DNA of 64,000 nucleotides from NCBI RefSeq assembly GCF_022170825.1, contig NZ_CP081878.1, positions 398,001-462,000 on the forward strand, read 5' to 3'. Each line of letters begins with the position of its first letter. Within the stretch, counting starts at the first letter, position 1. Shown piece after piece: positions 18,867 to 35,868 of this stretch. The notes under the pieces were generated by a model that did no database searches, had not been told where the DNA came from, and was given only the letters and a program-made list of their open reading frames with translations. Position numbers and translations under genes: made by a program. This DNA comes from Exiguobacterium acetylicum. Lineage in GTDB: Bacteria > Bacillota > Bacilli > Exiguobacteriales > Exiguobacteriaceae.

Positions 18867-20264
18867 TTATGCACGCGAACCGACCTGTTGCCGCGGTGGG
18901 AGGTGAATCGATTGACCGAATAAAGCTTCCATCGATTCCGTCAACGCTTCGCTTCGACTTGGATGTGCCATGACAGGGAAGAGTAGATCTTCTCGTTTCG
19001 CTGTCAGTTCCAGTGCTTGAGTGAATTGTCCGATGATACGATGGGCATCGTCTCCGATCATATGAATACCAAGGACCAGTGATGTCTGTTCGTCAGCAAT
19101 GACCTTAACGAAACCACTTCCGCCTTCGATTGTCGTCGCTCCATTTGCGTTCAGTGGGAACTGTCCGGTTTGAACCGTGTGTCCGGCTTCACGGGCTTCC
19201 TGTTCCGTCATCCCGACAGAAGCAATCGGTGGAAATGTCCGCAGAACGGTCGGATAATACGGTGTCGTCGGATCGACGTCTTGACCGGACAGATGCGTTG
19301 CCGTCCGCTTCGCTTCATGAATCGCACGAGTGGCAAACTGTGGACCCGGGGTCACATCACCAATGGCATAAATATGCGGTTGATTTGTTTGTCCGTATGC
19401 GTCGACTGGAATCGTCCCGTCTTCTGCAAGCGTCACACCGATCCGCTCGAGACCGAGTGTCAAACTGTTTGGGATCCGGGAAAGCGATTGGAACAGGTAG
19501 GCGCCCTGATAGACGACTTCTTCTCCGTTTTTCATGACCGTGACGGTCACGTCCCTCGATGCATCGATCCGTGTCACGACATCCGACACGAGACGGATTT
19601 TTTGTTTTTTGAACGTCCGCTTCAGTTCCTTTTCAAGACTTGGTTCGAGCGACAATTGATCCGCGAACAACGTCACCTCTGTACCGAGAGCACGAAAACA
19701 GGCAGCGGCTTCGAGTGCTAATGTGTCGGAGCCAATGATCAATAAGCTCTCGGGTAACTGCTCGAGTTGATAAAGCTGCTCGGCATTCAGTCGGCACGAT
19801 TCCTCGTGCTGGATGCTGTGGCTACCGGTCGCGATGATGACATCTTGGAATCGGTACGTGTCGAACTGATGTCCCGACTCGACACCGATCCGGTCTTCTG
19901 ACAGGAAGGAAGCTGCACCAGAAATATGCTCGATCTGGTTCGCTTGACAGAGGGCAACAACGCCTTGGCGCAATTGCTGTACGACCCGATTCCGGTAAGC
20001 ATTCATTTTGCTGAAATCATGGACAGCAGGAGTGGTGAATCCGAGATCTTCGAGATGGGGCAGGCGTAACATCTCTTCTGCTGCATGCGCGTAAACTTTT
20101 GACGGGATACAGCCTCGGTTCAGACACAGTCCACCGAGTTCAGCTTGTTCGATCAGTGTCACCTTGCGACCGCCTTGCGCAGCGCGGATCGCTGCTGTGT
20201 AACCGGCGGGACCCCCACCGATAATCAGGAGATCCCGTTCTTGTGTAAGTTCGCCAACAACCAT
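18867..20264 (-). CDS. dihydrolipoyl dehydrogenase (E3)
   Basis: This 465-residue flavoprotein has the FAD motif GGGPAGYTAAIRAAQ at residue 16, the redox disulfide GGLCLNRGCIPSK near residue 45, a central NAD domain, the IYAIGDVTPGPQFA FAD motif near residue 300 and the C-terminal active-site pair in MAHPSRSEALTE. It reoxidises the lipoyl groups of the E2 two bases upstream. As the last gene of the thioesterase-dehydrogenase-E1-E2 operon it makes the complex self-sufficient rather than dependent on a shared housekeeping E3. Confidence 0.93.
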   Translation of the reverse strand: MVVGELTQERDLLIIGGGPAGYTAAIRAAQGGRKVTLIEQAELGGLCLNRGCIPSKVYAHAAEEMLRLPHLEDLGFTTPAVHDFSKMNAYRNRVVQQLRQGVVALCQANQIEHISGAASFLSEDRIGVESGHQFDTYRFQDVIIATGSHSIQHEESCRLNAEQLYQLEQLPESLLIIGSDTLALEAAACFRALGTEVTLFADQLSLEPSLEKELKRTFKKQKIRLVSDVVTRIDASRDVTVTVMKNGEEVVYQGAYLFQSLSRIPNSLTLGLERIGVTLAEDGTIPVDAYGQTNQPHIYAIGDVTPGPQFATRAIHEAKRTATHLSGQDVDPTTPYYPTVLRTFPPIASVGMTEQEAREAGHTVQTGQFPLNANGATTIEGGSGFVKVIADEQTSLVLGIHMIGDDAHRIIGQFTQALELTAKREDLLFPVMAHPSRSEALTESMEALFGQSIHLPPRQQVGSRA

Positions 20265-20265
20265 G

Positions 20266-21483
20266 TTAAATCAACTCCAAAAGTAGGGTAGTCGGATGTT
20301 CAATCAGTGAAACGAATCGGTTTGTAAAGGCAACAGCCGTTGCCCCGTCCGCGACGCGATGATCGAACGACATCGACAAATTCATCATTGAGCGGACGAC
20401 GATTTGATCGTCTTCATCGACACACGCTCGTTTTTTCGTCTTGTGGAAGGCAATCAATGCCGTTTCCGGATAGTTGATGATTGGTGTCGCACCCGTACTG
20501 CCGAGTGGACCAACATTGCTCATTGTAAAGGTGCTCGGTTTTAAGTCCGCTGCGCGTAAGGCACAGTTTTGAGCACGTTGCTGCAGAGCGAGCAGTTGAT
20601 CATGCAGTTCGGTCAGTGACAGCTGATCGGCATGACGGATGACAGGAACCATTAACCCGTCTGGTGTCTCAGTTGCCATTCCGAAGTGGAAATCCTGCTC
20701 TAATCGAATACATTCATTCGCTTCGTCGAGTTTGGCATGGAAGACGGGATAGTCTTTTAAGGCAACGATCAAGGCTTTGATGAAGAAAGCATTGATGTTG
20801 ATGTTTCGTCCAGCGGCTTTCCATTCGGCACGCAGGGCGAGCAAGCGCGTCATGTCAACTTCCTCGAAGTGAGTGACATGTGGAATTGTGTACAGCGACT
20901 GTGTCATCTTTTTCGCGATCTGCTTACGAATACCACGGAACGGAATCGTTTCCGGTGGCGTTTGTTGTTGCGTGACTTCCTCCGCGACCGAAGGAACCGT
21001 CTCTTGAGGAGCAACTGCAGCATTGACGAAGCGAAGCACATCGTCCTCCGAGACGCGACCCGATGGATCCGAAGCCGTGACAGCTTCGATATCAATCCCG
21101 TGATCACGAGCGATTTTTCGTGTATATGGTGTCGCAAGGACCCGTTTTGCTGGAGAAACTTGAACAGGTGGGGCAGTGACAGCAACCGATGCTGGTTCAG
21201 GAGCGGACGACGCTTCAGGTGTTACCGCGACCGGCATGTCGGAAGCGTTACTTGCTTCGATGTGCAATAATGTCGTACCGACTTGCACCGTCTGGCCGAC
21301 CGGAATGATGATTTCCTTGACGATTCCGGAGACAGGAGCTGGAAGTTCAGCGACCATCTTATCGGTCGCGACCTCAACGACCGGTTGATCGGTCGTAACA
21401 TGGTCTCCGACTTGAACGAGATAATGCGCGATTTCACCTTCCGTCATACCTTCCCCGACATCATGTAACTTGACTTCGATCAT
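20266..21483 (-). CDS. 2-oxo acid dehydrogenase acyltransferase (E2)
   Basis: I chose the start at 21483 because the lipoyl domain begins there and AAGGAG lies upstream; the longer frame adds an Arg-rich stretch unlike any E2. The 405-residue protein has one lipoyl domain (lipoyl-Lys in EVATDKMVAELPAP, about residue 43), a linker, a subunit-binding domain (residues about 130-165, ATPYTRKIARDHGID) and the catalytic core with SFDHRVADGA. It transfers the acyl group to CoA. A single lipoyl domain fits branched-chain or aryl-type as well as pyruvate-type complexes. Confidence 0.93.
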   Translation of the reverse strand: MIEVKLHDVGEGMTEGEIAHYLVQVGDHVTTDQPVVEVATDKMVAELPAPVSGIVKEIIIPVGQTVQVGTTLLHIEASNASDMPVAVTPEASSAPEPASVAVTAPPVQVSPAKRVLATPYTRKIARDHGIDIEAVTASDPSGRVSEDDVLRFVNAAVAPQETVPSVAEEVTQQQTPPETIPFRGIRKQIAKKMTQSLYTIPHVTHFEEVDMTRLLALRAEWKAAGRNININAFFIKALIVALKDYPVFHAKLDEANECIRLEQDFHFGMATETPDGLMVPVIRHADQLSLTELHDQLLALQQRAQNCALRAADLKPSTFTMSNVGPLGSTGATPIINYPETALIAFHKTKKRACVDEDDQIVVRSMMNLSMSFDHRVADGATAVAFTNRFVSLIEHPTTLLLELI

Positions 21484-21496
21484 GGGACTCAGCTCC

Positions 21497-22495
21497 TTAA
21501 AACTCGACCGTACGCTGAATCGTCGCAAGGACTCGTTCCGGCGTCGGAATGTAATGGTCTTCGAGGGCGAATAGCGGTACCGGAACATCAAAACCGGTCA
21601 CGCGGGCAATCGGTGCCCGTAAATAAAGAAACGCTGTATCGTTGATTAACGTGACGAGATCGTTACCAAGACCACCCATTGCTGCAGCTTCGTGCACGAT
21701 GACGGCACGACCGGTCTTTTGAACAGAAGCAGCAATCGTGTCCCGGTCGAGCGGATAGAGCGTGCGTAAGTCGAGCACTTCGCAAGAGATACCGCGTTCC
21801 TGTGCAGCCGTTGCGGCTTTTTGTGCCACCTGGACCATTGCTCCCCAAGCGATCAACGTTACGTCCGTCCCTTCACTGACGCAGCGCGCTTTTCCGATTT
21901 CAACGGTATAAGACTCGCTCGGTACGACTTCCTTGAATGAGCGATAACTGCGCATCGACTCGAGGAATAACACGGGATCTGGATCTTCAATCGCAGCAAT
22001 CAACAAACCTTTTGCATCGTACGGTGTCGCCGGACAGACGACCTTGAGACCGGGCATCGATGTAAAGAGTGCTTCTGTACTGTCGGAATGAATTTCCGGT
22101 GCCCGGATGCCGGCACCATAAGGGGCACGGATGACCATCGGGACACTATAGCGTCCCATCGTCCGCATTCGAATGCGGGAGACGTGAGTCATGATTTGTT
22201 CATAGGCAGGGTAGATGAAGCCGAGGAATTGAATCTCGACAATTGGTTTAAAGCCATTGATGGCAAGTCCGATCGATGTACCGACGATACCGGCTTCACT
22301 GAGCGGTGTATCAACGATCCGGTCTTCACCGAACTCTTCCTGTAAGCCGTCCGTCGCTCGGAAAACACCGCCGTTTTTTCCGACATCTTCTCCAAGAACG
22401 AGCGTCGTCTCATCCTCCGACAGTTTTGTCCGCAGGGCATCCGTGACAGCTTGAACGAGTGTCATCTCCGTTTGACGATTAATTGGTGTTGCCAT
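21497..22495 (-). CDS. 2-oxo acid dehydrogenase E1 beta subunit
   Basis: The 332-residue protein is a transketolase-like beta subunit with LGEDVGKNGGVFRATDGL, DTPLSEAGIVG and the IRAPYGAGIRAPEIHSDS block. It forms the E1 heterotetramer with the alpha subunit, whose stop is one base upstream. By eye the sequence is as close to the pyruvate dehydrogenase-type betas of Firmicutes as to branched-chain ones, so substrate cannot be read from it. The context with a phenylalanine-dehydrogenase-like enzyme points to an aromatic 2-oxo acid. Confidence 0.9.
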   Translation of the reverse strand: MATPINRQTEMTLVQAVTDALRTKLSEDETTLVLGEDVGKNGGVFRATDGLQEEFGEDRIVDTPLSEAGIVGTSIGLAINGFKPIVEIQFLGFIYPAYEQIMTHVSRIRMRTMGRYSVPMVIRAPYGAGIRAPEIHSDSTEALFTSMPGLKVVCPATPYDAKGLLIAAIEDPDPVLFLESMRSYRSFKEVVPSESYTVEIGKARCVSEGTDVTLIAWGAMVQVAQKAATAAQERGISCEVLDLRTLYPLDRDTIAASVQKTGRAVIVHEAAAMGGLGNDLVTLINDTAFLYLRAPIARVTGFDVPVPLFALEDHYIPTPERVLATIQRTVEF

Positions 22496-22496
22496 C

Positions 22497-23546
22497 TCAT
22501 TTCCCCCTTGCTAGCAAATACGCTTCTTTTTGTTGCTGGACATCAACTGGTAAGGTCGCGTACGTATGGTCGAACAGATCGTTGACGTCTGGTGCCTTGA
22601 ATTGCTCCATTTCAGCTACTGCTGCTTCGACTTCTGTTTGATGCCGTTCCTGCAGTTGTTGCATCCACGTTTCGTCAAAGTATCCTTGGTGTTTTAGGAA
22701 CTGTTCGAGTCGATCGAGCGGATCAACCCGGTCGCGCGAGCGTGCTTGATCTCGGTATTTCGTTGGATCATCTGCTGTCGTATGGGCACCAAACCGCCAC
22801 GTGACAGCTTCAATCAATGTTGGTCCACCGCCAGAGCGCGCACGTTCTACGGCTGCTTGCATCGTGAAATAGACGGCAAAGGCATCGTTTCCATCAATCC
22901 GAACACTTGGCATCCCATAGGCAATCGCTTTTTGTGCAATCGTCTCGGAATGCATCTGTTTTTCGATCGGAACAGAGATTGCGAATTGATTGTTTTGGTT
23001 AAACAGGATGACTGGTGCTTGGAAGACACTTGCGAAGTTCATCCCTTCATGGAAATCCCCTTCAGACGTCGCTCCATCACCAAAGTAGGCGACAGCAACG
23101 TTCGTCGTGCCTTTTCGTTTTTCAGCCCACGCGGCGCCGACGGCATGCGGAATTTGCGTTGCGATCGGAACGGCAGGAGGGAAGATGTGTTTCTCAGACG
23201 GAACACAACCTTCGACACGACCGTTCCAGTAGAGGAGCGTCCGGACCATATCAGCGCCAAACGTCAATGTCGCACCGTGATCTCGGTACGTCGGGAATAA
23301 CCAGTCTTGATCGGACAACGCGAGTGCACTACCGACTTGAGCTGCTTCCTGTCCTTCGAACGGTGCATAAGTGCCGAGGCGCCCTTGGCGTTGCAAGTTA
23401 ATCGCTTTCCGGTCGAACGTCCGGATCCGGTGCATCTGTTCATACAGGGTGAGGGCGAGCTCCTTTGTCAGATCGTGTTCTTTTGAGGCGTCGATGAGAC
23501 GACCTTCTTCATCGATGATGCGTTGAATCGGAAAATGTTGCTCCAT
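22497..23546 (-). CDS. 2-oxo acid dehydrogenase E1 alpha subunit (thiamine diphosphate-dependent)
   Basis: The 349-residue protein contains the thiamine diphosphate/Mg motif from GDGATSEGDFHEG to NQNNQ near residues 165-195, and TYAPFEGQEAAQVGSALAL near residue 55, which is common in PDH-type alphas. The phosphorylation-loop region WRFGAHTTADDPTKYR is present. It decarboxylates the 2-oxo acid and passes the acyl group to E2 lipoyl-Lys. The gene starts 13 bases after the amino acid dehydrogenase, so the oxo acid product of that enzyme is the likely substrate. Confidence 0.92.
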   Translation of the reverse strand: MEQHFPIQRIIDEEGRLIDASKEHDLTKELALTLYEQMHRIRTFDRKAINLQRQGRLGTYAPFEGQEAAQVGSALALSDQDWLFPTYRDHGATLTFGADMVRTLLYWNGRVEGCVPSEKHIFPPAVPIATQIPHAVGAAWAEKRKGTTNVAVAYFGDGATSEGDFHEGMNFASVFQAPVILFNQNNQFAISVPIEKQMHSETIAQKAIAYGMPSVRIDGNDAFAVYFTMQAAVERARSGGGPTLIEAVTWRFGAHTTADDPTKYRDQARSRDRVDPLDRLEQFLKHQGYFDETWMQQLQERHQTEVEAAVAEMEQFKAPDVNDLFDHTYATLPVDVQQQKEAYLLARGK

Positions 23547-23559
23547 GTCAGTCCCTCCT

Positions 23560-24702
23560 TCAGTGGTTACGGATATCCCATTTTGGTTTTGTCGTATTCG
23601 TGAAGATGTTGTTATGTTTCGCCCGGATTTGCATCCGTTTTTCGCACATCCGGTTCGCGGCTTCGACCGTCGTGATGTTTTCTGCTTGCGACTCCTTGAA
23701 GACTTCGAGCACTGCGTCGTAGATGTGGCGTGTCTTTAAGAGAACCCGTTCATGATTTGCGCCATAGAGTTCGTCAGCTACTTGAATCAACCCACCGCCA
23801 TTGACGATATAGTCCGGGGCATATAAGATGCCGCGATCCATCAAGACGTGAGCAAGTTGTTCTTCTGCAAGTTGATTGTTCGCCGAACCACAGATGGCTT
23901 TACACGGTAAGAGGGCAATGTTTTGAGCGTGAATGACACCACCGTATGCACATGGGACAAAAATATCAGCATCCGTTAGATGAATTTCGTGAGGTGAGAC
24001 GACGCGAACCGTGCCGGGTGCCATTTCAGCTTGAGTCACGATTGCTGCGAGCGCGGCTTCATTGACGTCTGAAACATAAATCGTCGCACCGGCAAGCAAG
24101 AGTTGTTCCGCGACCTTAAAGCCAACTTTTCCGAGTCCTTGGATCGCGTAGGTTGCCCGACTTAATTCATCTGAACCAAATAACGTCTCGATCGTCGCCC
24201 GAAGCCCGTAAACGACACCTTCAGCCGTTGGAATCGATGAATCCCCACTGCCACCAAAGGCTTCCGGAATGCCGACGATCCGTGACGTTTCCCGGCTAGC
24301 ATGGACGAAATCATCCATTGTCGTGCCCATGTCCGTTCCCGTGTAGAACCGACCACCGAGCGAATCGACGAAGCGACCGAAGGCACGGAAAAGCTCCGGT
24401 GATTTATCCGTCGCTGGATTACCGATGATGACGGCTTTACCACCGCCAAAATCAACGTCAGCGGCAGCGCATTTATACGTCATACCGCGCGACAAACGCA
24501 GAACATCGTCAAGTGCTTCATCAACAGAAGCATAAGGTGCCATTCGGCATCCGCCGAGAGCAGGACCGAGCGTCGTATCATGAATGGCGATGATGGCTTG
24601 TAATCCCGAGACAGGGTCGTTGCAAAAGACGACTTGTTCGTGACCAGCGATTTTTTCCATGATCGAGAGCGTTGGATTCGTAGATGGGTTTAACATGTTC
24701 AT
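23560..24702 (-). CDS. pdh: NAD-dependent amino acid dehydrogenase, probably L-phenylalanine dehydrogenase
   Basis: I chose ATG 24702 because GAGGAGGA precedes it. The 380-residue length suits phenylalanine dehydrogenase (about 380) slightly better than leucine dehydrogenase (about 365). Segments recalled from Bacillus and Thermoactinomyces phenylalanine dehydrogenases occur: [28 protein letters not shown] (both catalytic Lys), [17 protein letters not shown] and [10 protein letters not shown]. Leucine dehydrogenases usually show ALGGTRM, AEDVGT and GSALNQL instead. The Rossmann motif is IQGLGKVG. It would convert L-phenylalanine to phenylpyruvate and NADH; leucine or valine use remains possible. 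Confidence 0.85.
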
Positions 24703-24728
24703 AGTAGAGTCCTCCTCTATCAAATATA

Positions 24729-24742
24729 AGTAAGCGCTTTCA
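24729..24742 (-). promoter_or_regulatory. cre-like CcpA site inside the leftward operon
   Basis: Read leftward, TGAAAGCGCTTACT matches the cre consensus at 13 of 14 positions. It overlaps the thioesterase stop codon and lies 27 bases before the dehydrogenase start, a position from which CcpA could act as a transcription roadblock or repress an internal promoter. Confidence 0.6.
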
Positions 24743-25141
24743 TTTTGTCGGAACATTATTTTGTAATTTTGCTTGAATCCGGCTTTTTTCTAAAATGAAT
24801 TGTGTGACTTCCCCTGTACCGATGATCGTTTGTCCGTCTCGGACTTCGATGCTAGCATCAACGCGACGTGATGTCATCGACGTTACTGTCGCGGTCACGA
24901 TCAATCGTGCTCCTTCCGCTGCCATACCAAGATGCTTCAGTGAAACCGCACCACCGACACCTTCTTCACCAGCTTCTAAGTAGGGCAAAATCAGTTGACG
25001 TGCTGCCCATTCCATGTGATAAACCATCGAAACGGTGGAGTATGCTGGATGAACGAGCTGACCTTCGAATCGTGCAAACATATCTTCCGAGACGACCGCT
25101 TGAATCTCTGCTGTATCCCCGACAGCTAATCCTAGTTTCAT
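24740..25141 (-). CDS. FlK-like hotdog-fold acyl-CoA thioesterase
   Basis: The 133-residue protein is a single hotdog domain. The block [19 protein letters not shown] followed by [18 protein letters not shown] fits the fluoroacetyl-CoA thioesterase (FlK) group, in which a Thr/Ser, the Glu and the His form the active site; all three positions are filled here. It is the first gene of the leftward operon and faces paaK. By analogy with the unrelated-sequence hotdog PaaI of Proteobacteria it may release CoA from phenylacetyl-CoA or dead-end intermediates. That role is inferred. Confidence 0.75.
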
Positions 25142-25198
25142 CGTGATCCCCTTTCACAACACCGAATCTTTATTCAATCAAGTGGTCTTACCAAAAAT

Positions 25199-25207
25199 AG
25201 TATAACA
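25199..25207 (-). promoter_or_regulatory. extended -10 promoter of the leftward operon
   Basis: Read leftward, TGTTATACT is a perfect extended -10 (TGnTATACT), about 58 bases before the thioesterase start. No good -35 box is seen at 17 bases, which an extended -10 does not need. Confidence 0.5.
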
Positions 25208-25381
25208 CTTGTCACACGATATTTTATCAACCCGTTACAAAATGAGCAAATCATTTCAGAAATATTTTCCAAAAAAAGACTGTTTATCATGAAATCTCTT
25301 GTTTAATGTTAATTGATTTATCGATAAGGTGCGTTGAAGTGATAAAGTAAGAATCGTTTGGGAGCATTTAACAAAACAAGA

Positions 25382-25417
25382 TTGACAACATTGTGAACGT
25401 ATCGTACGTTAAACGTA
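25382..25417 (+). promoter_or_regulatory. paa operon promoter region with overlapping inverted repeats
   Basis: A TTGACA -35 box lies at 25382-25387. Directly after it are three half-sites in alternating orientation: AACGTA (25396-25401), TACGTT (25405-25410) and AACGTA (25412-25417), forming two perfect 6-base inverted repeats that share the middle arm. They cover the place of the -10 box, as expected for a repressor operator. PaaX coded at the end of the operon is the best candidate ligand; this is inferred. The rest of the gap 25142-25472 is AT-rich with no gene seen. Confidence 0.6.
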
Positions 25418-25428
25418 TAACTAAAAAC

Positions 25429-25440
25429 AAACGACCGTTT
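25429..25440. promoter_or_regulatory. second palindrome in the paaK leader
   Basis: AAACGACCGTTT has perfect 5-base arms around AC and lies 33 bases before the paaK start. It differs from the AACGTA repeats upstream, so a second regulator may bind here; short palindromes also arise by chance. Confidence 0.35.
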
Positions 25441-25472
25441 TATTATTGTATACATGATGAGGAGGTGCAGGT

Positions 25473-26750
25473 ATGTACGATCAACATCACGAAACGATGG
25501 ATGCTCAAAAGCGGGAGCAGCTACAGATGGAGCGATTACGTCAAACGATGGAACACGTCACACGTGTCCCGTTCTATCAAGAACGTCTGCAGACCTTACA
25601 GATGACAGCGAATGATTTTCAAACGATCGAAGATCTACGAAAGTTTCCCTTCACACGTAAACAAGATTTACGCGATCATTATCCGTTCGGGCTATTTGCC
25701 GTTGAACGGGAACAGGTCACCCGGATTCATGCGTCGTCTGGAACGAGTGGTAAACCGACCGTCGTCGGGTATACGCAAGAAGATTTAGATGACTGGGCCG
25801 GTGCCGTGGCACGCAGTTTAGTCTTAGCTGGTGGATCACCAGCCGATTTGCTGCACAATGCGTATGGTTATGGATTGTTCACAGGTGGTCTCGGTCTTCA
25901 TGCAGGGGCAGAAAAACTAGGCATGACGATCCTACCGATTTCCGGTGGCAACACGGATCGCCAAATTACATTGATCGTGGATTTCCGACCGGACGGTATC
26001 TGTGGAACGCCTTCGTATATTTTACGCTTGGCAGAACGCATGATTGAACGTGGTATCGATCCACGGAAAACGAGCATGCGTTATGGCATCTTTGGAGCTG
26101 AACCATGGTCGGAAGAGATGCGGCAGACACTCGAACAGACATTTGATCTGCAGGCACTCGATATTTACGGACTCAGTGAAATCATGGGACCTGGTGTCGC
26201 GATGGAGTGTCAAGAGCAGGCAGGTCTGCATATCATGGATGACTTATTCATTACAGAAGTCGTCGATCCCGTTACGGGGGAACCGGTACCAAATGGCATG
26301 GTCGGGGAACTCGTTTTTACAAGCTTAAAAAAGAAAGCGCTTCCAATCATTCGCTACCGGACAGGCGACTTAGCTTCGATCACGCATGAGGCGTGCGCTT
26401 GCGGTCGGACGACGACACGGATGTCACGTGTCAAAGGGCGGACGGACGACATGCTAATCATCCGAGGAGTCAACGTTTTCCCGTCAGAAATCGAGCGGGT
26501 CTTGCTCCAACAACCGGACGTGACGCCACATTATCAAATCCATCTTGTACGTAAAGCCGGACTTGATGCTGTTGAGCTACATATCGAATTCGAAAATATC
26601 TCAGAACGACAAATGCGTTCGATATGTGACGCCATCAAATCGGAATGTCTCATTTCTATTGATCTCGTCTGTCACCCGCATCAAGGGTTACCACGATCGG
26701 AAGGTAAAGCCGTTCGGATCGTTGATCGACGTTCGACATCACTCGTCTGA
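25473..26750 (+). CDS. paaK: phenylacetate-CoA ligase
   Basis: The 425-residue length is diagnostic of PaaK-type adenylating ligases. The phosphate-binding loop SSGTSGKPTVVGYT is near residue 90 and the C-terminal region has YRTGDLASITHEACACGR and the GRTDDMLIIRGVNVFPSEIE hinge. It makes phenylacetyl-CoA from phenylacetate, ATP and CoA. AGGAGGTG precedes the ATG. It heads the rightward paa operon, 18 bases before paaA. It provides an entry for external phenylacetate, while the leftward operon may make phenylacetyl-CoA without free phenylacetate. Confidence 0.95.
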   Translation: MYDQHHETMDAQKREQLQMERLRQTMEHVTRVPFYQERLQTLQMTANDFQTIEDLRKFPFTRKQDLRDHYPFGLFAVEREQVTRIHASSGTSGKPTVVGYTQEDLDDWAGAVARSLVLAGGSPADLLHNAYGYGLFTGGLGLHAGAEKLGMTILPISGGNTDRQITLIVDFRPDGICGTPSYILRLAERMIERGIDPRKTSMRYGIFGAEPWSEEMRQTLEQTFDLQALDIYGLSEIMGPGVAMECQEQAGLHIMDDLFITEVVDPVTGEPVPNGMVGELVFTSLKKKALPIIRYRTGDLASITHEACACGRTTTRMSRVKGRTDDMLIIRGVNVFPSEIERVLLQQPDVTPHYQIHLVRKAGLDAVELHIEFENISERQMRSICDAIKSECLISIDLVCHPHQGLPRSEGKAVRIVDRRSTSLV

Positions 26751-27740: not shown

Positions 27741-27754
27741 GAGGGGAAGGTACG

Positions 27755-28881: not shown

Positions 28882-28895
28882 AAGGAGAGGGAAGC

Positions 28896-29390
28896 ATGAC
28901 GACAACACTTCAGCATGCGATCCGTGAAGCCCTGAACGGGGTGAAGGATCCAGAAATCGATAGCGTCAGCATTTTAGATCTTGGCATGGTCGAGAAGATG
29001 GACGCGGAAGCGACGGCGCATGGCTACACGGTGCACGTCACGCTTCTCCCGACGTTTCTCGGCTGTCCGGCGCTTGAAATCATTAAAAAAAATACCGAAG
29101 CTGCCTTGCAGGTGATTCCGAACGTCGAACAGGTCGACGTCCAGTTCCGGTTTGATCCACCGTGGACATCGGACCGTATCACAGAACAAGGGATGCAAGG
29201 ATTGAAGGCATTCGGCATCGCACCCCCTCGATTCGAACAAGGAAATTGGGAAATCGACTGTCCGTATTGTGGATCGACGTACGTGACGATGGAAAACTTA
29301 TTCGGACCGACCGCTTGTCGAAGTATTCTCTACTGTAAATCGTGTAAAAATCCATTCGAGGCGATGAAACCCGTCTCTACTCTCATGTGA
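28896..29390 (+). CDS. paaD: PaaD, iron-sulfur/epoxidase maturation protein
   Basis: The 164-residue protein has the DUF59/MIP18 domain (VKDPEIDSVSILDLGMV, residues about 11-27) and, at the C-terminus, a four-Cys zinc ribbon formed by CPYCG and CKSCK. This layout is specific to PaaD, thought to help mature the epoxidase metal centres. ATG 28896 follows GGAGAGGGA. Confidence 0.94.
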   Translation: MTTTLQHAIREALNGVKDPEIDSVSILDLGMVEKMDAEATAHGYTVHVTLLPTFLGCPALEIIKKNTEAALQVIPNVEQVDVQFRFDPPWTSDRITEQGMQGLKAFGIAPPRFEQGNWEIDCPYCGSTYVTMENLFGPTACRSILYCKSCKNPFEAMKPVSTLM

Positions 29391-29405: not shown

Positions 29406-29729
29406 ATGGCAAAATTAATCGCACTTTACAAACACCCAGAAAACAAGGAAGCATTCGATCAGCATTACTTCGAGGTCCATGGTCCGTTAACAGCAAAAAT
29501 TCCAGGACTAAAAGAAATGAACGTCACGAAAATCGTCGGTTCACCAATGGGTGGAGACGGAAAGTACTACTTGATGTGCGAGATGGTCTATGAAAGTCAG
29601 GAAGCGATGCAAGCTGGCATGCGTTCTCTTGAAGGAAAAGCGTCAGGGAAAGACTTGATGAGCTTTGCGGGGGATCTCGTCACATTGATGATTGGTGAAG
29701 ATGTCCATGCCGACACAACAGTACGTTAA
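29406..29729 (+). CDS. EthD-family small protein in the paa operon
   Basis: The 107-residue protein has the EthD/dabb-like ferredoxin fold, beginning with KLIALYKHPENKEAFDQHYF and containing the His of FEVHGPLTAKIPGL. EthD proteins accompany oxygenase systems with an unknown helper role. It sits at the place where paaE stands in Proteobacteria, but it has no flavin or iron-sulfur motif, so it cannot replace that reductase. An AAGGAAGG site precedes the start; the end overlaps the next gene. Confidence 0.8.
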   Translation: MAKLIALYKHPENKEAFDQHYFEVHGPLTAKIPGLKEMNVTKIVGSPMGGDGKYYLMCEMVYESQEAMQAGMRSLEGKASGKDLMSFAGDLVTLMIGEDVHADTTVR

Positions 29730-30486
29730 GACAGAAACGGTTGGTCGGATCGGTCGAATTCGGCTCGACCGGACGGCACGATACAATGCGCTGAACCGGA
29801 CGATGGTCCGCGAAATCGTTGAGGCGATGGAGACTTTTGACCGCGACGATCGGGTGACGGTCATTGTTTTGACAGGAAACGGAAAGTCGTTTTCAGCAGG
29901 TGCCGATATCGAGGAGATGCTCGAAGCGACACCGATTTCGATGGAACTTCTTGATCCATTCGCGGACTGGGACCGGATCAGCCGAATCAAAAAACCAATC
30001 ATTGCAGGTGTCCACGGTTTTGTTCTCGGAGGCGGGTTCGAACTGGCGCTCGCTTGTGATTTAATCTACGCCGATCCCGCGACTCAGTTTGGCTTTCCAG
30101 AAGTCGGACTCGGCGTCATGCCGGGAGCAGGCGGGACGCAACGTTTGACGAAATGCATCGGTCGAACGCGGGCGCTCGAGTGGCTCTTCACGGGTGACCG
30201 AATGCAGGCAGAGGAAGCAGAACGACTTGGCATCATCAATCGAGTGACGACGGACGTCGAAGCGACGGTGCTTGCGATGGCGGAGCGATTATCAAACCAG
30301 CCGAGCATGGCGTTACGACTGATTAAGGACGCAGCAAACAAAGCCGTCGATTTATCGTTACAAGATGGCATGGAGCACGAACGCCGAAACTTCTATCTGC
30401 TGTTCGCAACAGCCGATCAAACAGAAGGCATGCAAGCCTTTCTCGAAAAACGTCCACCGATTTTCAATCAACAGGAACAGGAGTGA
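29701..30486 (+). CDS. enoyl-CoA hydratase/isomerase family protein (first of two in the paa operon)
   Basis: The crotonase-fold protein has the oxyanion-hole blocks GKSFSAGADIEEM near residue 60 and GVHGFVLGGGFELALACD near residue 100, and the Glu of FPEVGLGVMPGAGGTQRL. In the pathway it may be PaaG (isomerase of the epoxide to the oxepin) or PaaF (hydratase); the sequence alone does not settle which. The start is uncertain (29701 or 29707), and it overlaps the EthD-like gene by about 25 bases. The stop is close to the aldehyde dehydrogenase start. Confidence 0.85.
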   Translation: MSMPTQQYVKTETVGRIGRIRLDRTARYNALNRTMVREIVEAMETFDRDDRVTVIVLTGNGKSFSAGADIEEMLEATPISMELLDPFADWDRISRIKKPIIAGVHGFVLGGGFELALACDLIYADPATQFGFPEVGLGVMPGAGGTQRLTKCIGRTRALEWLFTGDRMQAEEAERLGIINRVTTDVEATVLAMAERLSNQPSMALRLIKDAANKAVDLSLQDGMEHERRNFYLLFATADQTEGMQAFLEKRPPIFNQQEQE

Positions 30487-30491
30487 ATACA

Positions 30492-32000
30492 ATGTCGACA
30501 GTACATGAAAAAACACTTGAAATGAAACGGTCCGTCTATCATTTGCTCATCAACGGCGAACAAGTCGAAGGTGCAACAGGCGAGACATTTAAAACATATA
30601 ATCCGGCAACAGGTGAAGTGATCGCGGAAGTTGCAAAAGCATCGAAGGAAGACGCTGATCGTGCCGTTCAAGCCGCACGGGATGCGTTTGATCACGGGAA
30701 GTGGAAGATGTGGCCAGTCGGACGCCGCGCGCAAATCTTAAATAAGATTGCCAGCATCATGCGTTCCCGCTTCAACGAAATCGTCGAACTCGAGATTCTC
30801 GATACAGGGAAATCATTAGCAGCGGCGCAAGGACAAGTCACGCAAGCAATTGAAGACTTTGAGTTCTACGCAGGTGCGATCGTCGGTCATCGTGGTGTCG
30901 TCAATAACGTGCCGGGACAATTCCATAACTACACAGAAAAAGAAGCGGTCGGTGTTTGTGCGCAAATCATTCCGTGGAACTATCCATTGATGATGGCAGC
31001 TTGGAAAGTTGCACCAGCGATCGCAGTCGGTTGTTCGGTCGTCGTCAAACCAGCGACATTAACACCATTAACAGCCATCATTCTCGGTGAGATTTGTCTA
31101 GAAGCTGGCGTTCCGGCAGGTGTCGTCAACGTCATCCCAGGTTCAGGCCGCGAGATCGGCAACCATCTCGTCGAGCATCCAAACGTCGATAAAGTCGCTT
31201 TCACAGGCTCGACACCAGTCGGAAAAGACATCATGGGACGTGCGTCAGAAACACTAAAACGAGTCACACTCGAACTCGGTGGAAAATCACCGAACATCGT
31301 CTTTGAAGATGCAGATGTGACAGCAGCTGTTGATGGTTCGTTGTTCGGGATCTTCTATAACAGCGGTCAATCGTGTGAAGCACGCTCACGTCTTTACGTT
31401 CACGAGGATATTTACGACGCGTTCATGGAACAATTCGTCGCAAAAACAAAACAACTCGTTCTCGGCAATCCATTTGATAAAGGAACACATGTCGGAGCGA
31501 TCATCGATCAACAACAAGTCGATGTCATCGATGGATACGTCCAGTCAGCGAAAGCAGACGGAGCAACAATCGTCACAGGAGGTCACGCTTCAGCACCAGA
31601 AGGATACGAAAAAGGCTTCTGGTACGCACCGACGATCATCACGGACGTCACGCATGAGATGAAAGCGGTCAATGAAGAGATCTTTGGACCAGTCGTCGTC
31701 GTCATGCCGTTCAAGGATGAAAAAGAAGCGATTCGTTTAGCGAACGATACATCGTTTGGACTCGGATCAGCGCTTTGGACGAAAGACGGTGCAAAAGCGA
31801 CGCGCGTTGCCAACCAAATCAAAGCCGGTATCGTCATGGTTAACTGTCCGTTTTCTGCTTTCCCAGGTACACCGTTTGGTGGGTATAAGCAATCAGGATT
31901 CGGTCGTGAACTCTGTATCGAAACACTTGATCTGTACACAGAAACGAAGAGTATCTTGTCGTATTACGGCAGTCGTCCACTCAATCCGTTCGGACTATAA
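30492..32000 (+). CDS. aldehyde dehydrogenase of the phenylacetate pathway
   Basis: The 502-residue enzyme has all class landmarks: IPWNYPLMMAAWKVAPA, the NAD loop FTGSTPVGKDIMGRA, the general base in LELGGKSPN (about Glu266), the nucleophile in NSGQSCEARSR (about Cys300) and EEIFGPVVVVMPF. Overall similarity is to betaine-aldehyde-type enzymes. Context suggests it oxidises the ring-opened 3-oxo-5,6-dehydrosuberyl-CoA semialdehyde. Classic PaaZ carries a fused MaoC hydratase, which is absent here, so ring hydrolysis needs another enzyme. A terminator follows. Confidence 0.88.
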   Translation: MSTVHEKTLEMKRSVYHLLINGEQVEGATGETFKTYNPATGEVIAEVAKASKEDADRAVQAARDAFDHGKWKMWPVGRRAQILNKIASIMRSRFNEIVELEILDTGKSLAAAQGQVTQAIEDFEFYAGAIVGHRGVVNNVPGQFHNYTEKEAVGVCAQIIPWNYPLMMAAWKVAPAIAVGCSVVVKPATLTPLTAIILGEICLEAGVPAGVVNVIPGSGREIGNHLVEHPNVDKVAFTGSTPVGKDIMGRASETLKRVTLELGGKSPNIVFEDADVTAAVDGSLFGIFYNSGQSCEARSRLYVHEDIYDAFMEQFVAKTKQLVLGNPFDKGTHVGAIIDQQQVDVIDGYVQSAKADGATIVTGGHASAPEGYEKGFWYAPTIITDVTHEMKAVNEEIFGPVVVVMPFKDEKEAIRLANDTSFGLGSALWTKDGAKATRVANQIKAGIVMVNCPFSAFPGTPFGGYKQSGFGRELCIETLDLYTETKSILSYYGSRPLNPFGL

Positions 32001-32010
32001 GCAAGAGGGA

Positions 32011-32045
32011 AGGCTGGAGTTCCGTCGGGAAGTCCAGCCTTTTTT
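32011..32045 (+). terminator. terminator inside the paa cluster
   Basis: A stem of AGGCTGGA (32011-32018) with TCCAGCCT (32033-32040) is followed by T residues to 32045. It splits the ring-attack genes from the beta-oxidation genes and may be partial read-through, since no strong promoter is seen before paaH. Confidence 0.75.
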
Positions 32046-32074
32046 AACAGCACAGGGGATAAGGGGGAAATCAG

Positions 32075-32941
32075 ATGGTAGAACAAATCGTCGTCGTCGG
32101 ATCCGGCGTCATGGGACGTGGCATTGCGTACGTTGCCGCACACCGCGGATTTCAGGTGACACTCGTTGATATTAAAGAAGCGTATGTCGAAAGTGCCTAT
32201 CAAGAACTCGAACGGATCGCAGAGAAAGGTATCACGCGAGGCAAAATGTCCGCGAGTGAAGTCGAGGGACTGTTCGATCGGTTAAGTTTGTCGACGGATT
32301 TAGCAACGGCTGCACAACAAGCGGATCTCGTCATTGAGGCGGTACCGGAACAACTGACGATCAAACAGCAAGTCTTTGAAACATTAGAAGCCAATGCACG
32401 ACCGGACTGTTATTTTGCGACGAATACGTCGACGATGAGTCCGACGGAGATCGCCTCCTTTACGAACAGGGCGGACCGGGTCATGGCGATGCATTTCTTC
32501 AATCCGGTCCATCTGATGCCACTGATCGAGCTCGTTCGTGGTCTTGAGACGTCGGATGAGACGGTTGCTGCCTTAGAGCAAGTGGCGCGTCATATGCAAA
32601 AGGAAACGGTCGTCATCCGTGAGTTTCCTGGGTTTGTGACTTCACGTATCAGTGCGCTCGTCGGAAACGAAGCGTTTTATATGTTGCAAGAAGGGCTTGG
32701 GACACCGGAAGAGATCGATAAAGCGATCAAACTCGGATTAAATTATCCGATGGGACCCTTCGAACTCGGGGACTTGGTCGGGCTCGATACTCGACTCCAC
32801 AACTTAAAGTATCTCCATGAGAAGCTCGGCGAAAAATACCGTCCGGCACCACTGCTCGAACAGTATGTCAAAGCCGGTCGACTCGGTCGTAAAACAGGTC
32901 GTGGGGTCTACGACTACACGAATCGTGAGGTGACGTCATGA
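32075..32941 (+). CDS. paaH: 3-hydroxyacyl-CoA dehydrogenase
   Basis: The 288-residue protein has the NAD motif VVGSGVMGRGIAYVAAHRG, the catalytic His in MAMHFFNPVHLMPLIEL near residue 145, and a C-terminal domain with GFVTSRISALVGNEAFYMLQ. The single-domain form resembles 3-hydroxybutyryl-CoA dehydrogenases. In the pathway it oxidises 3-hydroxyadipyl-CoA to 3-oxoadipyl-CoA. Its stop overlaps the thiolase start by four bases. Confidence 0.92.
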   Translation: MVEQIVVVGSGVMGRGIAYVAAHRGFQVTLVDIKEAYVESAYQELERIAEKGITRGKMSASEVEGLFDRLSLSTDLATAAQQADLVIEAVPEQLTIKQQVFETLEANARPDCYFATNTSTMSPTEIASFTNRADRVMAMHFFNPVHLMPLIELVRGLETSDETVAALEQVARHMQKETVVIREFPGFVTSRISALVGNEAFYMLQEGLGTPEEIDKAIKLGLNYPMGPFELGDLVGLDTRLHNLKYLHEKLGEKYRPAPLLEQYVKAGRLGRKTGRGVYDYTNREVTS

Positions 32942-34146
32942 AACGTGTCGCCATCATCGATGCCGTTCGGACACCGATCGGTCGCTATAACGGCGCGTTG
33001 CGTCAAGTTCGCCCGGATGATTTAGGGGCACGTGTCATCGAAGCGTTACTTAAGCGTAATCCGCAAGTCGATCCGAAGACGATCGAGGAAGTTATTTTCG
33101 GCAATGCGAATCAGGCGGGGGAAGATAACCGGAACGTCGCTCGGATGTCCGGACTACTGGCTGGTCTACCGGTCGAAGTCGCCGGTACGACGATCAATCG
33201 CTTATGTGGATCAGGACTCGATGCTGTCATTGCAGCCGCTCGCGGAATTGCGTTAGGTGAAGGGGATATTTATATCGCTGGAGGAACGGAAAGCATGACG
33301 CGTGCGCCGTTCGTCCTCGCGAAGCCGGATCAAGCCAACCCGCGTGGCAATCAGACGATGTATGATACGACGATTGGCTGGCGGTTCGTCAATGATCGCT
33401 TAGCAGATAAATACGGAACGGATTCGATGCCGGAGACAGCTGAGAACGTCGCCCGTCAGTACGGCATCTCACGTGAAGCGCAGGATGACTTTGCGTTTGA
33501 AAGTCAACAACGTGCAAAACGAGCCATCGAGGAACAGCGCTTCACAGAAGAGCTAGTTGCGGTCATGCAGATGGACCGAAAAGGTAACGTCAGCGTCTTC
33601 GACCAAGATGAACACCCACGTCCCGAGACGACGCGCGAGAAACTCGCGACGCTTCGTCCTTTATTCCCGAACGGTACCGTGACAGCGGGAAATGCATCTG
33701 GCGTCAACGATGGTGCTTCGGCGCTGTTATTGATGAGTGAAGAAAAAGCAAACGAACTCGGCTTGACACCGCTTGGATATTACCGAGCGAGTGCGACAGC
33801 AGGCGTTGAACCCGCCATCATGGGCATCGGACCGATCGACGCGACGGAAAAAGTTCTCCGGCGGGCAGGATTGAAAGTCGAACAGCTCGATCAGATTGAG
33901 TTGAACGAAGCGTTTGCGGCTCAAAGTCTTGCTTGTATCGAAGCACTCGGTCTACCGAGCGAAAAAGTCAACGTCAACGGCGGAGCGATTGCTTTCGGTC
34001 ATCCGCTCGGCGCAAGTGGAGCGCGGATTTTGACGACGTTATTGCATGAGATGCGCCGGACGAACCGGACGTATGGTCTCGCCACGATGTGTGTCGGAGT
34101 TGGTCAAGGGATCGCACTCGTCGTCGATCGGGAGGGACTCGTATGA
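32938..34146 (+). CDS. paaJ: acyl-CoA thiolase (3-oxoadipyl-CoA/3-oxo-5,6-dehydrosuberyl-CoA thiolase)
   Basis: The 402-residue thiolase has the acyl-Cys in INRLCGSGLDAV (about Cys90), the His in NVNGGAIAFGHPLGASGAR near residue 355, and the second Cys in ATMCVGVGQGIA near residue 386. PaaJ acts twice in the phenylacetate route, releasing acetyl-CoA and then succinyl-CoA. Overlaps of four bases with paaH before and a hydratase after show tight coupling. Confidence 0.93.
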   Translation: MKRVAIIDAVRTPIGRYNGALRQVRPDDLGARVIEALLKRNPQVDPKTIEEVIFGNANQAGEDNRNVARMSGLLAGLPVEVAGTTINRLCGSGLDAVIAAARGIALGEGDIYIAGGTESMTRAPFVLAKPDQANPRGNQTMYDTTIGWRFVNDRLADKYGTDSMPETAENVARQYGISREAQDDFAFESQQRAKRAIEEQRFTEELVAVMQMDRKGNVSVFDQDEHPRPETTREKLATLRPLFPNGTVTAGNASGVNDGASALLLMSEEKANELGLTPLGYYRASATAGVEPAIMGIGPIDATEKVLRRAGLKVEQLDQIELNEAFAAQSLACIEALGLPSEKVNVNGGAIAFGHPLGASGARILTTLLHEMRRTNRTYGLATMCVGVGQGIALVVDREGLV

Positions 34147-34910
34147 TTCATTTGGAACGAGAAGGCTATATCGCGATCGTTCGGATTGATCGCCCAGAAC
34201 GCCTGAACTGTCTCGATTATCCGACGCTTGTCGCCTTACAGGAACAAGTCGATGCGTTGTCGGTCGACCCGGAAGCGCGGGTCGTCCTGTTCACCGGAAC
34301 CGGTAAAGCATTTAGTGCCGGCGCTGATTTAAAGGAACGCGTACATTTGAATGAGGAAGAAGTCCGACGTAATGTCCTTGCGATTCGTAACGTCTTCACC
34401 TCGATCGCACAATTACCACAACCGACAATCGCTGCCGTCAATGGTCACGCGCTCGGTGGTGGCTTTGAATGGATCCTCGCCTGTGATTTCCGTTTTCTCG
34501 TCGAGGATGCACTCGTCGGTTTGACGGAGACTAGTTTCGGAATCATTCCCGGGGCTGGCGGAACACAACGCTTGCCGCGACTGATTGGGGAGACACGAGC
34601 AAAGGAACTGATTTTCACGGCGAAAAAAATCGATGCGATGACAGCAGAACGTTACGGACTCGCGACAGCCGTCGTCGCCCGGGAAGCGTTGATGACGACC
34701 TGTCTTGAGTTTGCTAATCAAATGTTACAGAACGGTCCCATCGCCTTGCGACAAGCGAAGCGAGCGATTGATCAAGGGCGGGATGTCTCACTCGAAGAAG
34801 GACTGCAGCTCGAAACGGAAGCCTATGAAGTCGTCATTCCGACTGCCGATCGTCAGGAAGCGCTACAAGCCTTCGCTGAAAAACGACCACCACGCTTTGA
34901 AGGAAGATGA
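34143..34910 (+). CDS. enoyl-CoA hydratase (second crotonase of the paa operon)
   Basis: The 255-residue crotonase begins at ATG 34143 overlapping the paaJ stop. Key blocks are GKAFSAGADLKERV near residue 58, GHALGGGFEWILACD near residue 100 and TSFGIIPGAGGTQRLPR with the catalytic-region Glu before it. It follows the thiolase directly, which suggests the PaaF role of hydrating 2,3-dehydroadipyl-CoA, leaving the earlier crotonase as PaaG; this split is inferred. Confidence 0.86.
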   Translation: MIHLEREGYIAIVRIDRPERLNCLDYPTLVALQEQVDALSVDPEARVVLFTGTGKAFSAGADLKERVHLNEEEVRRNVLAIRNVFTSIAQLPQPTIAAVNGHALGGGFEWILACDFRFLVEDALVGLTETSFGIIPGAGGTQRLPRLIGETRAKELIFTAKKIDAMTAERYGLATAVVAREALMTTCLEFANQMLQNGPIALRQAKRAIDQGRDVSLEEGLQLETEAYEVVIPTADRQEALQAFAEKRPPRFEGR

Positions 34911-34936
34911 GGATGGTCGACGTTTGAAATAACCCG

Positions 34937-34942
34937 TATACT
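34937..34942 (+). promoter_or_regulatory. possible own -10 box of paaX
   Basis: TATACT lies 42 bases before the paaX start with no convincing -35 hexamer. The gap of 73 bases after the hydratase stop, unlike the tight spacing upstream, makes an own promoter plausible. The flanking GTATACTAACGATAC is partly symmetrical. Confidence 0.35.
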
Positions 34943-34983
34943 AACGATACACACTATGAACGACTGAAGAGAGAGTGAATACC

Positions 34984-35868
34984 ATGAGTGCGAACACCCA
35001 ATCAATGATCTTTACGATTTACGGGGATTATATCCGTCATTACGGCAATCAAATCTGGGTCGGGAGTTTAATTCGACTCGTCAAAGAGTTTGGACATAAC
35101 GAACAAGCGGTCCGGGTCGCGGTATCCCGGATGGTCAAACAAGGCTGGCTCGTCTCCGAGAAGCAGGGGAGTAAAAGCTTCTATTCGTTGACGCCACGTG
35201 GGGTGGAGCGGATGGAAGAAGCAGCGCGCCGGATCTATAAATCAACACCGCACGACTGGGACGGAAAATGGCGAACGTTGATGTACACGATTCCTGAGGA
35301 TAAGCGGCAGATTCGCGACGAACTCCGTAAAGAACTGACGTGGAGTGGGTTTGGCAACTTATCAAACGGGGTTTGGATTTCACCGAATCCGCTTGAAAAA
35401 GAGGCGGAACGATTGATTGAAGCATACGAAATCGAAGAGTATGTCGATTTCTTCGTCGGTGAATACTACGGTCCAAAACAAGATCAATCTCTTGTTGAGC
35501 GCGCTTTTCCACTGGAGGAATTGCAGGAACGTTACGAGACGTTTATCACGGATTATAGCCGGCAATACATCGTCCATCAGAGTCAGCTCCAACTAGGAGA
35601 AATGACGGATGAGCAGTGTTTCGTCGAACGGACGATGCTCGTACATGAGTACCGAAAATTCCTCTTCACGGATCCGGGACTCCCGCAAGAACTATTACCG
35701 GATGCTTGGAGTGGACACCATGCGGCACTGTTGTTTGAGCAATATTACCGTTTGCTTGCGCAACCTGCGAGCCGGTTCTTCGAATCAATCTTTGAAGAGA
35801 CACACGATGTGTCACAACGTAGTGCCTCTTATGATGCAACAGAACATCCACTGTTTGCGGAACGATGA
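34984..35868 (+). CDS. paaX: PaaX-type transcriptional repressor
   Basis: I chose ATG 34984 after AGAGAGAG. The 294-residue protein has the PaaX plan: an N-terminal winged helix (residues about 8-80, GSLIRLVKEFGHNEQAVRVAVSRMVKQGWL with W-S-E-K turn), a central domain with DWDGKWRTLMYTIPEDKRQIRD, and the C-terminal domain. PaaX proteins release DNA on binding phenylacetyl-CoA. Likely targets are the AACGTA inverted repeats at 25396-25417 and perhaps its own promoter, which is inference. Confidence 0.9.
   Translation: MSANTQSMIFTIYGDYIRHYGNQIWVGSLIRLVKEFGHNEQAVRVAVSRMVKQGWLVSEKQGSKSFYSLTPRGVERMEEAARRIYKSTPHDWDGKWRTLMYTIPEDKRQIRDELRKELTWSGFGNLSNGVWISPNPLEKEAERLIEAYEIEEYVDFFVGEYYGPKQDQSLVERAFPLEELQERYETFITDYSRQYIVHQSQLQLGEMTDEQCFVERTMLVHEYRKFLFTDPGLPQELLPDAWSGHHAALLFEQYYRLLAQPASRFFESIFEETHDVSQRSASYDATEHPLFAER

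Follow-up and report, generated by a model that had tools for sequence, protein, structure and literature searches.

Direct conversion of phenylpyruvate to phenylacetyl-CoA has precedents, which are drawn on here from excerpts of the published accounts. In Streptomyces pristinaespiralis, PglB and PglC, alpha and beta subunits resembling pyruvate dehydrogenase (PDH), have been suggested to catalyze this step in L-phenylglycine biosynthesis (PMC7089894). A review reports a direct route from phenylalanine to phenylacetyl-CoA in Phaeobacter inhibens (PMC7497051), and an anaerobic 2-oxoacid:ferredoxin oxidoreductase likewise yields phenylacetyl-CoA from phenylpyruvate (PMC13290082). A paa cluster containing an EthD-family gene and a thioesterase gene has been described in Exiguobacterium sp. 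RIT 594 in connection with polystyrene and phenylacetate (PMC9416434). In the open-licence literature searched, we found no description of a phenylpyruvate dehydrogenase, or of a module joining phenylalanine dehydrogenase (PheDH) to paa genes, in Bacilli. Here we analyze a 64,000-nucleotide stretch of Exiguobacterium acetylicum (NZ_CP081878.1, positions 398,001 to 462,000; "the window"), in which a leftward operon for a thioesterase, a PheDH and the E1, E2 and E3 components of a 2-oxo acid dehydrogenase complex lies back to back with a rightward paa operon. By comparison of sequences and genomes, the cluster probably forms a complete L-phenylalanine catabolic module with a committed arylpyruvate dehydrogenase complex, the substrate of which would here be phenylpyruvate.

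The leftward arm encodes a predicted phenylalanine dehydrogenase and a third dehydrogenase complex

All named genes of both arms are intact open reading frames (ORFs) that match their expected families in the ORF list and in family-model scans of the window, which agrees with the gene inventory drawn up for the two arms in the first-pass annotation. The leftward arm consists of the following genes.

18867 to 20264, minus strand: E3, dihydrolipoyl dehydrogenase (TIGR01350, 380 bits, below the 409 cut-off), with the redox-disulfide motif GGLCLNRGCIPSK
20266 to 21591, minus strand: E2, dihydrolipoyl acyltransferase with a single lipoyl domain (E2 models, all under cut-off) and the DHRVADG catalytic motif
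21497 to 22495, minus strand: E1beta (PRK09212, 301 bits, below the 321 cut-off; top Protein Data Bank (PDB) matches 3duf_B and 1w85_B)
22497 to 23546, minus strand: E1alpha, a decarboxylase dependent on thiamine diphosphate (ThDP), with the ThDP motif and T59 at the pocket-Phe site (TIGR03181, 471 bits, above the 411 cut-off)
23560 to 24756, minus strand: predicted L-phenylalanine dehydrogenase, PheDH, of the Glu/Leu/Phe/Val dehydrogenases (PF02812/PF00208)
24740 to 25141, minus strand: FlK-type hot-dog thioesterase (PF22636, 108 bits)

The true start of E2 is likely near 21483 and that of PheDH near 24699. E1, E2 and E3 all retain their catalytic motifs, and inspection by eye also located the HPSRSE motif of E3 and the lipoyl site ATDKM. 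By count, H136 of E1beta pairs with H128beta of the enzyme represented by 3duf and 1w85.

Judged by its sequence, the Glu/Leu/Phe/Val dehydrogenase of the cluster is a PheDH. It is 66% identical to the Bacillus badius enzyme (NBRC 15713, 380 residues; locus L159), and the 14 pocket residues named for the characterized B. badius PheDH (PMC8543943) are the same in the L159 protein, at the published numbering, and in the window protein (14 of 14), which bears out its earlier description as phenylalanine-dehydrogenase-like. A paralog in the same genome that resembles leucine dehydrogenase (LeuDH) deviates at four of these sites (F86, G123, V144 and L306). The FVHAAR segment, which is described as directing substrate choice in the T. 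intermedius PheDH (PMC8967036), has the equivalent FVHASR in the window protein. Two other identities were rejected. The top PDB matches are mostly LeuDH, yet the pocket is that of PheDH and the LeuDH-like paralog sits in the operon for branched-chain 2-oxo acid dehydrogenase (bkd operon, BKD enzyme). The best NCBIfam match is ScyB, a tryptophan dehydrogenase, but its 353 bits fall well short of the 600 cut-off, and the LeuDH-like paralog scores higher with this model (439 bits).

A search of the genome for transketolase pyrimidine domains returned six genes, three of them in complexes of the E1alpha/E1beta type. One of the other two complexes lies beside rnjA (L218), and its E1alpha, E1beta and E3 reach PDH or lipoamide dehydrogenase cut-offs. 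The other (L219) comprises a phosphate butyryltransferase, the LeuDH-like dehydrogenase, a butyrate kinase and an E3-E1-E2 operon, which is the usual ptb-bcd-buk-bkd order. Pyruvate and branched oxo acids therefore appear to have complexes of their own in this genome, and the window complex is the third because these pdh and bkd operons exist separately.

That the window complex nevertheless acts on an ordinary oxo acid, pyruvate or a branched one, is in our estimation highly improbable. In its favor, the window E1alpha scores higher (471 bits) with TIGR03181, the NCBIfam model for PDH E1alpha, than the PDH E1alpha of its own genome (456 bits), the closest PDB relatives of the window E1 are PDH E1 proteins, and no other PDH E1 was found in genomes of one family, f36. 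Against it stand the pdh and bkd operons of the genome, the separate grouping of the E1alpha in the tree described below, its pairing with paaA even where PheDH is lacking (53 of 56 genomes), and replacement of the pocket Phe in 80 of 80 proteins of its type. A complex dedicated to phenylpyruvate, as proposed in the first-pass annotation, gains genomic support from these separate operons, the distinct E1 clade and T59.

E1alpha proteins of the window type share an altered pocket residue

The E1alpha tree (118 rows, midpoint root) was computed with a long-branch warning from the tool. In it, the 80 rows of the window type cluster together with an SH-aLRT support of 94, short of the 95 mark, next to a PDH group with a support of 100, and the BKD E1alpha rows are set apart with a branch support of 100. 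The window E1alpha falls outside the BKD rows and also outside the PDH clade, though it would pass the NCBIfam PDH model taken by itself. Site 59 is Thr in all 80 window-type rows and Phe in 16 of 16 PDH and 19 of 19 BKD rows; these counts exclude L100 and L101, which fall in the PDH clade, and L239, which is the same gene as L100. The site corresponds to F85 of the alpha subunit of human branched-chain dehydrogenase (BCDH), within the ungapped part of a HMMER alignment, and to F66 of the Thermus enzyme, by count via the BKD of this genome; the position of human BCDH M87 is A61 in the window E1alpha. A docking study (PMC12655727, from an excerpt) names both F85 and M87 as part of the binding site for the branched side chain. 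A further mark is E1beta site 104, which is His in 79 of 79 window-type rows, versus Gln in 16 of 16 PDH rows and Glu in 19 of 19 BKD rows.

Two genomes, G194 and G204 (loci L100 and L101), have an E1alpha-E1beta-E2 set of the PDH clade directly upstream of PheDH. This arrangement points to an apparent second recruitment, and site 59 is Asn in both, as such a recruitment would predict. PaaK gave no match in either genome.

The dehydrogenase, the complex and the paa genes are linked across Bacilli

The rightward arm, with the region that separates it from the leftward one, is made up as follows.

25142 to 25472, no strand: divergent promoter region, 331 bases, between the leftward and rightward arms
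25473 to 26750, plus strand: PaaK, phenylacetate-CoA ligase (TIGR02155, 571 bits, under the 646 cut-off)
26769 to 27740, plus strand: PaaA, phenylacetyl-CoA epoxidase catalytic subunit (TIGR02156, 455 bits, over cut-off)
27737 to 28099, plus strand: PaaB (TIGR02157, 112 bits, over cut-off)
28027 to 28881, plus strand: PaaC (TIGR02158, 222 bits, over cut-off)
28875 to 29390, plus strand: PaaD (TIGR02159, 166 bits, over cut-off)
29406 to 29729, plus strand: EthD-family protein (TIGR02118, 110 bits), not mentioned in the first-pass annotation
29692 to 30486, plus strand: crotonase, PaaF/PaaG-like (PRK05862, 268 bits, below cut-off)
30483 to 32000, plus strand: aldehyde dehydrogenase (ALDH), with a presumed PaaZ-ALDH role (ALDH models, those shown all under cut-off)
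32075 to 32941, plus strand: PaaH-like 3-hydroxyacyl-CoA dehydrogenase (PRK09260, 491 bits, over cut-off)
32938 to 34146, plus strand: PaaJ-like thiolase of the 3-oxoadipyl-CoA type (PRK09050, 590 bits, and pcaF, 579 bits, each slightly below cut-off)
34089 to 34910, plus strand: second crotonase (PRK07657, 315 bits, below cut-off)
34975 to 35868, plus strand: PaaX repressor (TIGR02277, 326 bits, over cut-off)

Within the order (38 genomes), all 19 genomes of the genus carry E1alpha and none of the 19 of the sister genus does (E 1e-90), and PaaA, found in 0 of 19 sister-genus genomes, shows the same split. Both arms occur together in all 18 other Exiguobacterium genomes, so that a separation of the two arms in related genomes, which would have spoken against the proposal, was not seen within the genus. 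E1alpha adjoins PheDH in each of the 18, and all 18 genes are present in 16; L048 lacks PaaK, and L046 lacks PaaX in the fetched stretch.

Outside the order, 65 genomes encode a PheDH-like enzyme at 392 bits or more, and the loci of 60 were fetched (G157, G147, G391, G304 and G073 were left out). In 56 of these 60 loci, E1alpha follows PheDH on its strand at a distance of no more than 3 kb, with gaps of at most 250 bases in 51 of the 56. Of the four exceptions, L099 and L125 show no E1 in the stretch, and L100 and L101 carry a different E1 upstream. A second set, of named loci, held the best 80 of 587 confirmed relatives, 10 of them from Exiguobacterium (Exiguobacterium sp. Leaf196 and E. indicum stand closest to the window, followed at slightly greater distance by E. 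sibiricum 255-15, E. antarcticum, E. undae and RIT594); it is drawn partly from the same genomes as the 60 loci, and the sets are not independent. Here E1alpha follows PheDH within 3 kb in 70 of 80 loci (60 of 70 outside Exiguobacterium), including that of Bacillus badius. Five of the other ten (L184, L186, L196, L198 and L209) have E1alpha-E1beta-E2 upstream, and five are copies in clusters of hpa (4-hydroxyphenylacetate) genes. At least one of paaA, B, C, D, K or X is within reach in 57 of the 80 loci, in 56 together with E1alpha. A thioesterase gene lies upstream of PheDH in 45 of 70 (best-80 set) and 14 of 60 (fetched set) loci outside Exiguobacterium. Six loci of the Paenisporosarcina type (L081, L082, L182, L183, L191 and L202) have two PheDH genes flanking the thioesterase gene.

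Genus-wide presence and the linkage of PheDH to E1alpha across Bacilli rule out chance adjacency of the arms. The expectation that the divergent pair itself would recur in other genomes held in part: the pairing of PheDH with the complex is conserved across Bacilli, but the divergent layout was seen in Exiguobacterium only, other Bacilli mostly carrying both gene sets in line or apart. In seven of 20 further regions (L269 to L275), E1alpha-E1beta is followed on one strand by paaA-paaB-paaC-paaD, with paaA 1.7 to 3.3 kb past E1alpha; E2 lies between the E1 genes and paaA in six of these and was not seen in L275. The 20 regions were chosen partly for closeness of E1alpha and PaaA, so the linkage there is not a rate.

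Co-occurrence was counted outside the order, over 360 genomes of Bacilli. PheDH and PaaA occur together in 59, PheDH only in 6, PaaA only in 69 and neither in 226. For E1alpha (at least 355 bits, 115 genomes; G213, G288, G383 and G391, at 337 to 341 bits, were left out of the counts with PaaA), the numbers are 106 with both, 9 with E1alpha only, 22 with PaaA only and 223 with neither. Once the PheDH genomes are removed they become 53, 3, 16 and 223, and by genus 54, 3, 11 and 75, in the same order. Fisher p values are tiny, as computed without correction for kinship. The link between the complex and the paa genes that the first-pass annotation had drawn thus extends to genomes lacking PheDH and, through the E1 genes upstream of paaA, to other genera.

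A further explanation is that phenylalanine is degraded mainly via free phenylacetate and PaaK, the complex being a minor branch. Of 109 genomes that have both PaaA and the window-type E1, 95 retain PaaK, and the PaaK gene is the first of the paa operon here. The remaining 14 of the 109 have no PaaK match at 1e-100. The 109 are a strict list plus three lower-scoring genomes (12 of 106 without PaaK on the strict list), and G288 was dropped because its E1 is unlinked to PheDH or paa (15 of 110 with it). A recheck of 13 of the 14 at 1e-10 gave no PaaK match in 11 and relatives of 25 to 31% identity in two; in the fourteenth, G105, PaaA is below the family cut-off. One genome of the same genus, G024 (L048), keeps PheDH, the complex and paaABCD and has PaaK relatives of 27 to 29% identity only. 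The 11 rechecked genomes and G024 argue against PaaK as the main entry, and we regard this explanation as very unlikely. In PaaK-less genomes the complex would be the visible source of phenylacetyl-CoA, in line with the PaaK-sparing route suggested at first. The saving of ATP proposed along with that route is something we infer, and 95 of the 109 keep PaaK. PaaK is absent from the divergent cluster in L048 and in L147 (E. flavidum), which are probably the same genome.

Hpa-linked relatives and the range of substrates

The substrate could mainly be another aromatic oxo acid, chiefly 4-hydroxyphenylpyruvate from tyrosine, or the complex could be more synthetic than catabolic. At least two hpa genes flank 21 of 178 loci. 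In L162 an hpa cluster is directly followed by a thioesterase-PheDH-E1-E2-E3 set, and no paa gene is within reach; L192, L197, L201, L212 and L215 have PheDH and a lone E2 inside an hpa cluster; family models confirm hpaI, hpaE, hpaB, hpaD and hpaG in L197. PglB and PglC, moreover, feed a biosynthetic pathway in the excerpted account (PMC7089894). The window, in contrast, has no hpaB, hpaD, hpaG or hpaI match, its PheDH carries the B. badius pocket, and the linked sink is PaaABCD. Several hpa loci also hold paa genes; in L165 and L176 a thioesterase-PheDH-E1-E2-E3 operon lies between paa and hpa genes, which fits a complex that takes both oxo acids. For the window, an alternative aromatic substrate or a synthetic role is improbable, and phenylpyruvate remains the more probable substrate. 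The hpa-linked loci suggest that relatives of the complex also make 4-hydroxyphenylacetyl-CoA from tyrosine via 4-hydroxyphenylpyruvate. We infer that the task of the thioesterase in these relatives is to free the acid for HpaB.

Proposed route and its standing

In the proposed route, PheDH would oxidatively deaminate L-phenylalanine to phenylpyruvate, which E1 would decarboxylate on ThDP in a pocket widened by the Phe-to-Thr exchange at E1alpha site 59. E2 would transfer the phenylacetyl group to CoA and E3 pass the electrons back to NAD+. The phenylacetyl-CoA would then feed the PaaABC epoxidase and, after it, the other enzymes of the paa pathway, so that the flux bypasses free phenylacetate, and PaaK would take up external phenylacetate and re-activate acid released by the thioesterase. 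PaaX may control both operons from the shared promoter region. Overall, the path from phenylalanine through phenylpyruvate and phenylacetyl-CoA to the paa enzymes, as first proposed, is well supported on genomic evidence.

Several observations weigh against this reading. The assignment of the substrate draws on comparison of sequences and genomes, among relatives that are not independent and with thresholds set after the score gaps were seen, and the support for the E1 group (94) lies below 95 in a tree that carried a long-branch warning. No PaaA was detected in 6 PheDH and 9 E1alpha genomes of the 360; four of the PheDH genomes (G157, G177, G187 and G206) belong to f36, and one G206 locus (L132) has genes for PaaG-like and PaaH-like proteins, a thiolase and an ALDH next to the complex. 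In f36, no canonical PDH E1alpha was detected in G137 or G206, and AceE was over the cut-off in 0 of the 7 genomes examined; since no canonical PDH E1 was found there, the f36 complex might double as a PDH and also serve pyruvate. The pairing with hpa genes at some loci means that the substrate may be wider than phenylpyruvate. Loss of PaaK is not more frequent with the complex, since 5 of 19 PaaA genomes without the window-type E1 (G049, G052, G194, G204 and G288) also lack it. Among these five, the PDH-clade E1 adjoins PheDH in G194 and G204, PaaA is below cut-off in G052, and G288 has no more than a 48% E1, 44 kb from PheDH; G049 is a straightforward exception.

With these points considered, the catabolic module with phenylpyruvate as its substrate is still the reading we hold with good confidence. 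Somewhat less firmly, it is likely that complexes with the Thr gate form a distinct class serving as the main, PaaK-independent route for phenylalanine (and for tyrosine near hpa genes) in many aerobic Bacilli, that the pocket was opened at least twice (Thr and Asn), and that the complex is the physiological partner of the industrially used PheDH enzymes. If this holds, a standard family model puts the label of pyruvate dehydrogenase on a catabolic route whose E1 occurs in 115 of 360 sampled Bacilli genomes (at 355 bits or more, with the clade checked for fetched ones only), and metabolic reconstructions are wrong on how phenylalanine enters the paa pathway. The route would also account for the presence in these bacteria of PheDH, which serves in phenylketonuria tests and in chiral synthesis according to excerpted sources (PMC8967036, PMC8543943). 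It would provide an NADH-yielding and ATP-free way to phenylacetyl-CoA, as well as a one-residue marker with which to find or engineer complexes accepting aromatic oxo acids.

Promoter region and neighboring features

A 15-nt motif, ACGATAnnTTnnCAA, occurs as an inverted pair at 25216 to 25230 (plus strand) and 25391 to 25405 (minus strand) between the arms. Both copies are present with at most one mismatch in 18 of 19 Exiguobacterium sequences, and with one mismatch allowed the motif is no commoner in the window than chance (3 found, 1.9 expected). The inverted pair is a candidate operator only. In L048 (G024) the right-hand copy is absent together with PaaK. Another motif, TATCGTRYGNNAANYG, was derived from the two sites that it matches, so its exact matches there are uninformative, and inspection of the aligned sequences by eye showed no conservation of it. 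Promoter and terminator scans gave no more hits than in shuffled sequence.

The models for PaaE, PaaG and PaaZ are the best family for no ORF of the window, in a search that covered the window; the two crotonases and the ALDH may stand in for these functions. The EthD-family gene adjoins PaaD in 13 of 13 (best-80 set) and 3 of 7 (fetched set) of the loci outside Exiguobacterium that show PaaD. This adjacency, together with the missing best matches to PaaE, PaaG and PaaZ in the cluster, suggests that the paa pathway of Bacilli may diverge past the epoxidation step or at the reductase. Downstream of PaaX lie a hexapeptide protein (35915 to 36454), which we take to be PaaY-like or gamma-carbonic-anhydrase-like, and a flavoprotein resembling nitronate monooxygenase or FabK (36483 to 37484). 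In other Bacilli the flavoprotein gene precedes PheDH on one strand in 37 of 70 (best-80 set) and 14 of 60 (fetched set) loci, and the flavoprotein may belong to the pathway. Elsewhere in the window, three S-adenosylmethionine (SAM) riboswitches score above the gathering score (41976 to 42079, 62862 to 62963 and 63169 to 63272), the two at 62.9 to 63.3 kb being divergent.

Comparison with known systems

The PDH of Bacilli (pdh) has the same components as the window complex and supplies its closest E1 relatives by tree and PDB. The window E1alpha differs in forming a separate group, in the exchange of the pocket Phe for Thr and in its operon partners. The Bacillus-type ptb-bcd-buk-lpdV-bkdAA-bkdAB-bkdB operon, of which this genome holds a copy, likewise places an amino acid dehydrogenase gene next to a complex of its own. 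It differs in that its substrates, judging from its genes, are branched, that E1alpha site 59 is Phe, and that no linkage to paa genes was seen in an 18-kb stretch.

The enzyme of the Phaeobacter route is an Ior1-type oxidoreductase. That route resembles the one proposed here in taking phenylpyruvate to phenylacetyl-CoA without free phenylacetate and in feeding the paa enzymes (PMC7497051). The S. pristinaespiralis system, compared by its description, shares PDH-like alpha and beta subunits and an operon that also contains a thioesterase; it differs in being actinomycete and biosynthetic, with only alpha and beta genes listed, an aminotransferase instead of PheDH, and paa genes elsewhere, as far as the excerpted account goes (PMC7089894). 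The cluster of Exiguobacterium sp. RIT 594 (a contig of which is L143) has the same paa genes, EthD protein and thioesterase as the window, and PheDH and E1 to E3 go unmentioned in the excerpt of the description (PMC9416434).

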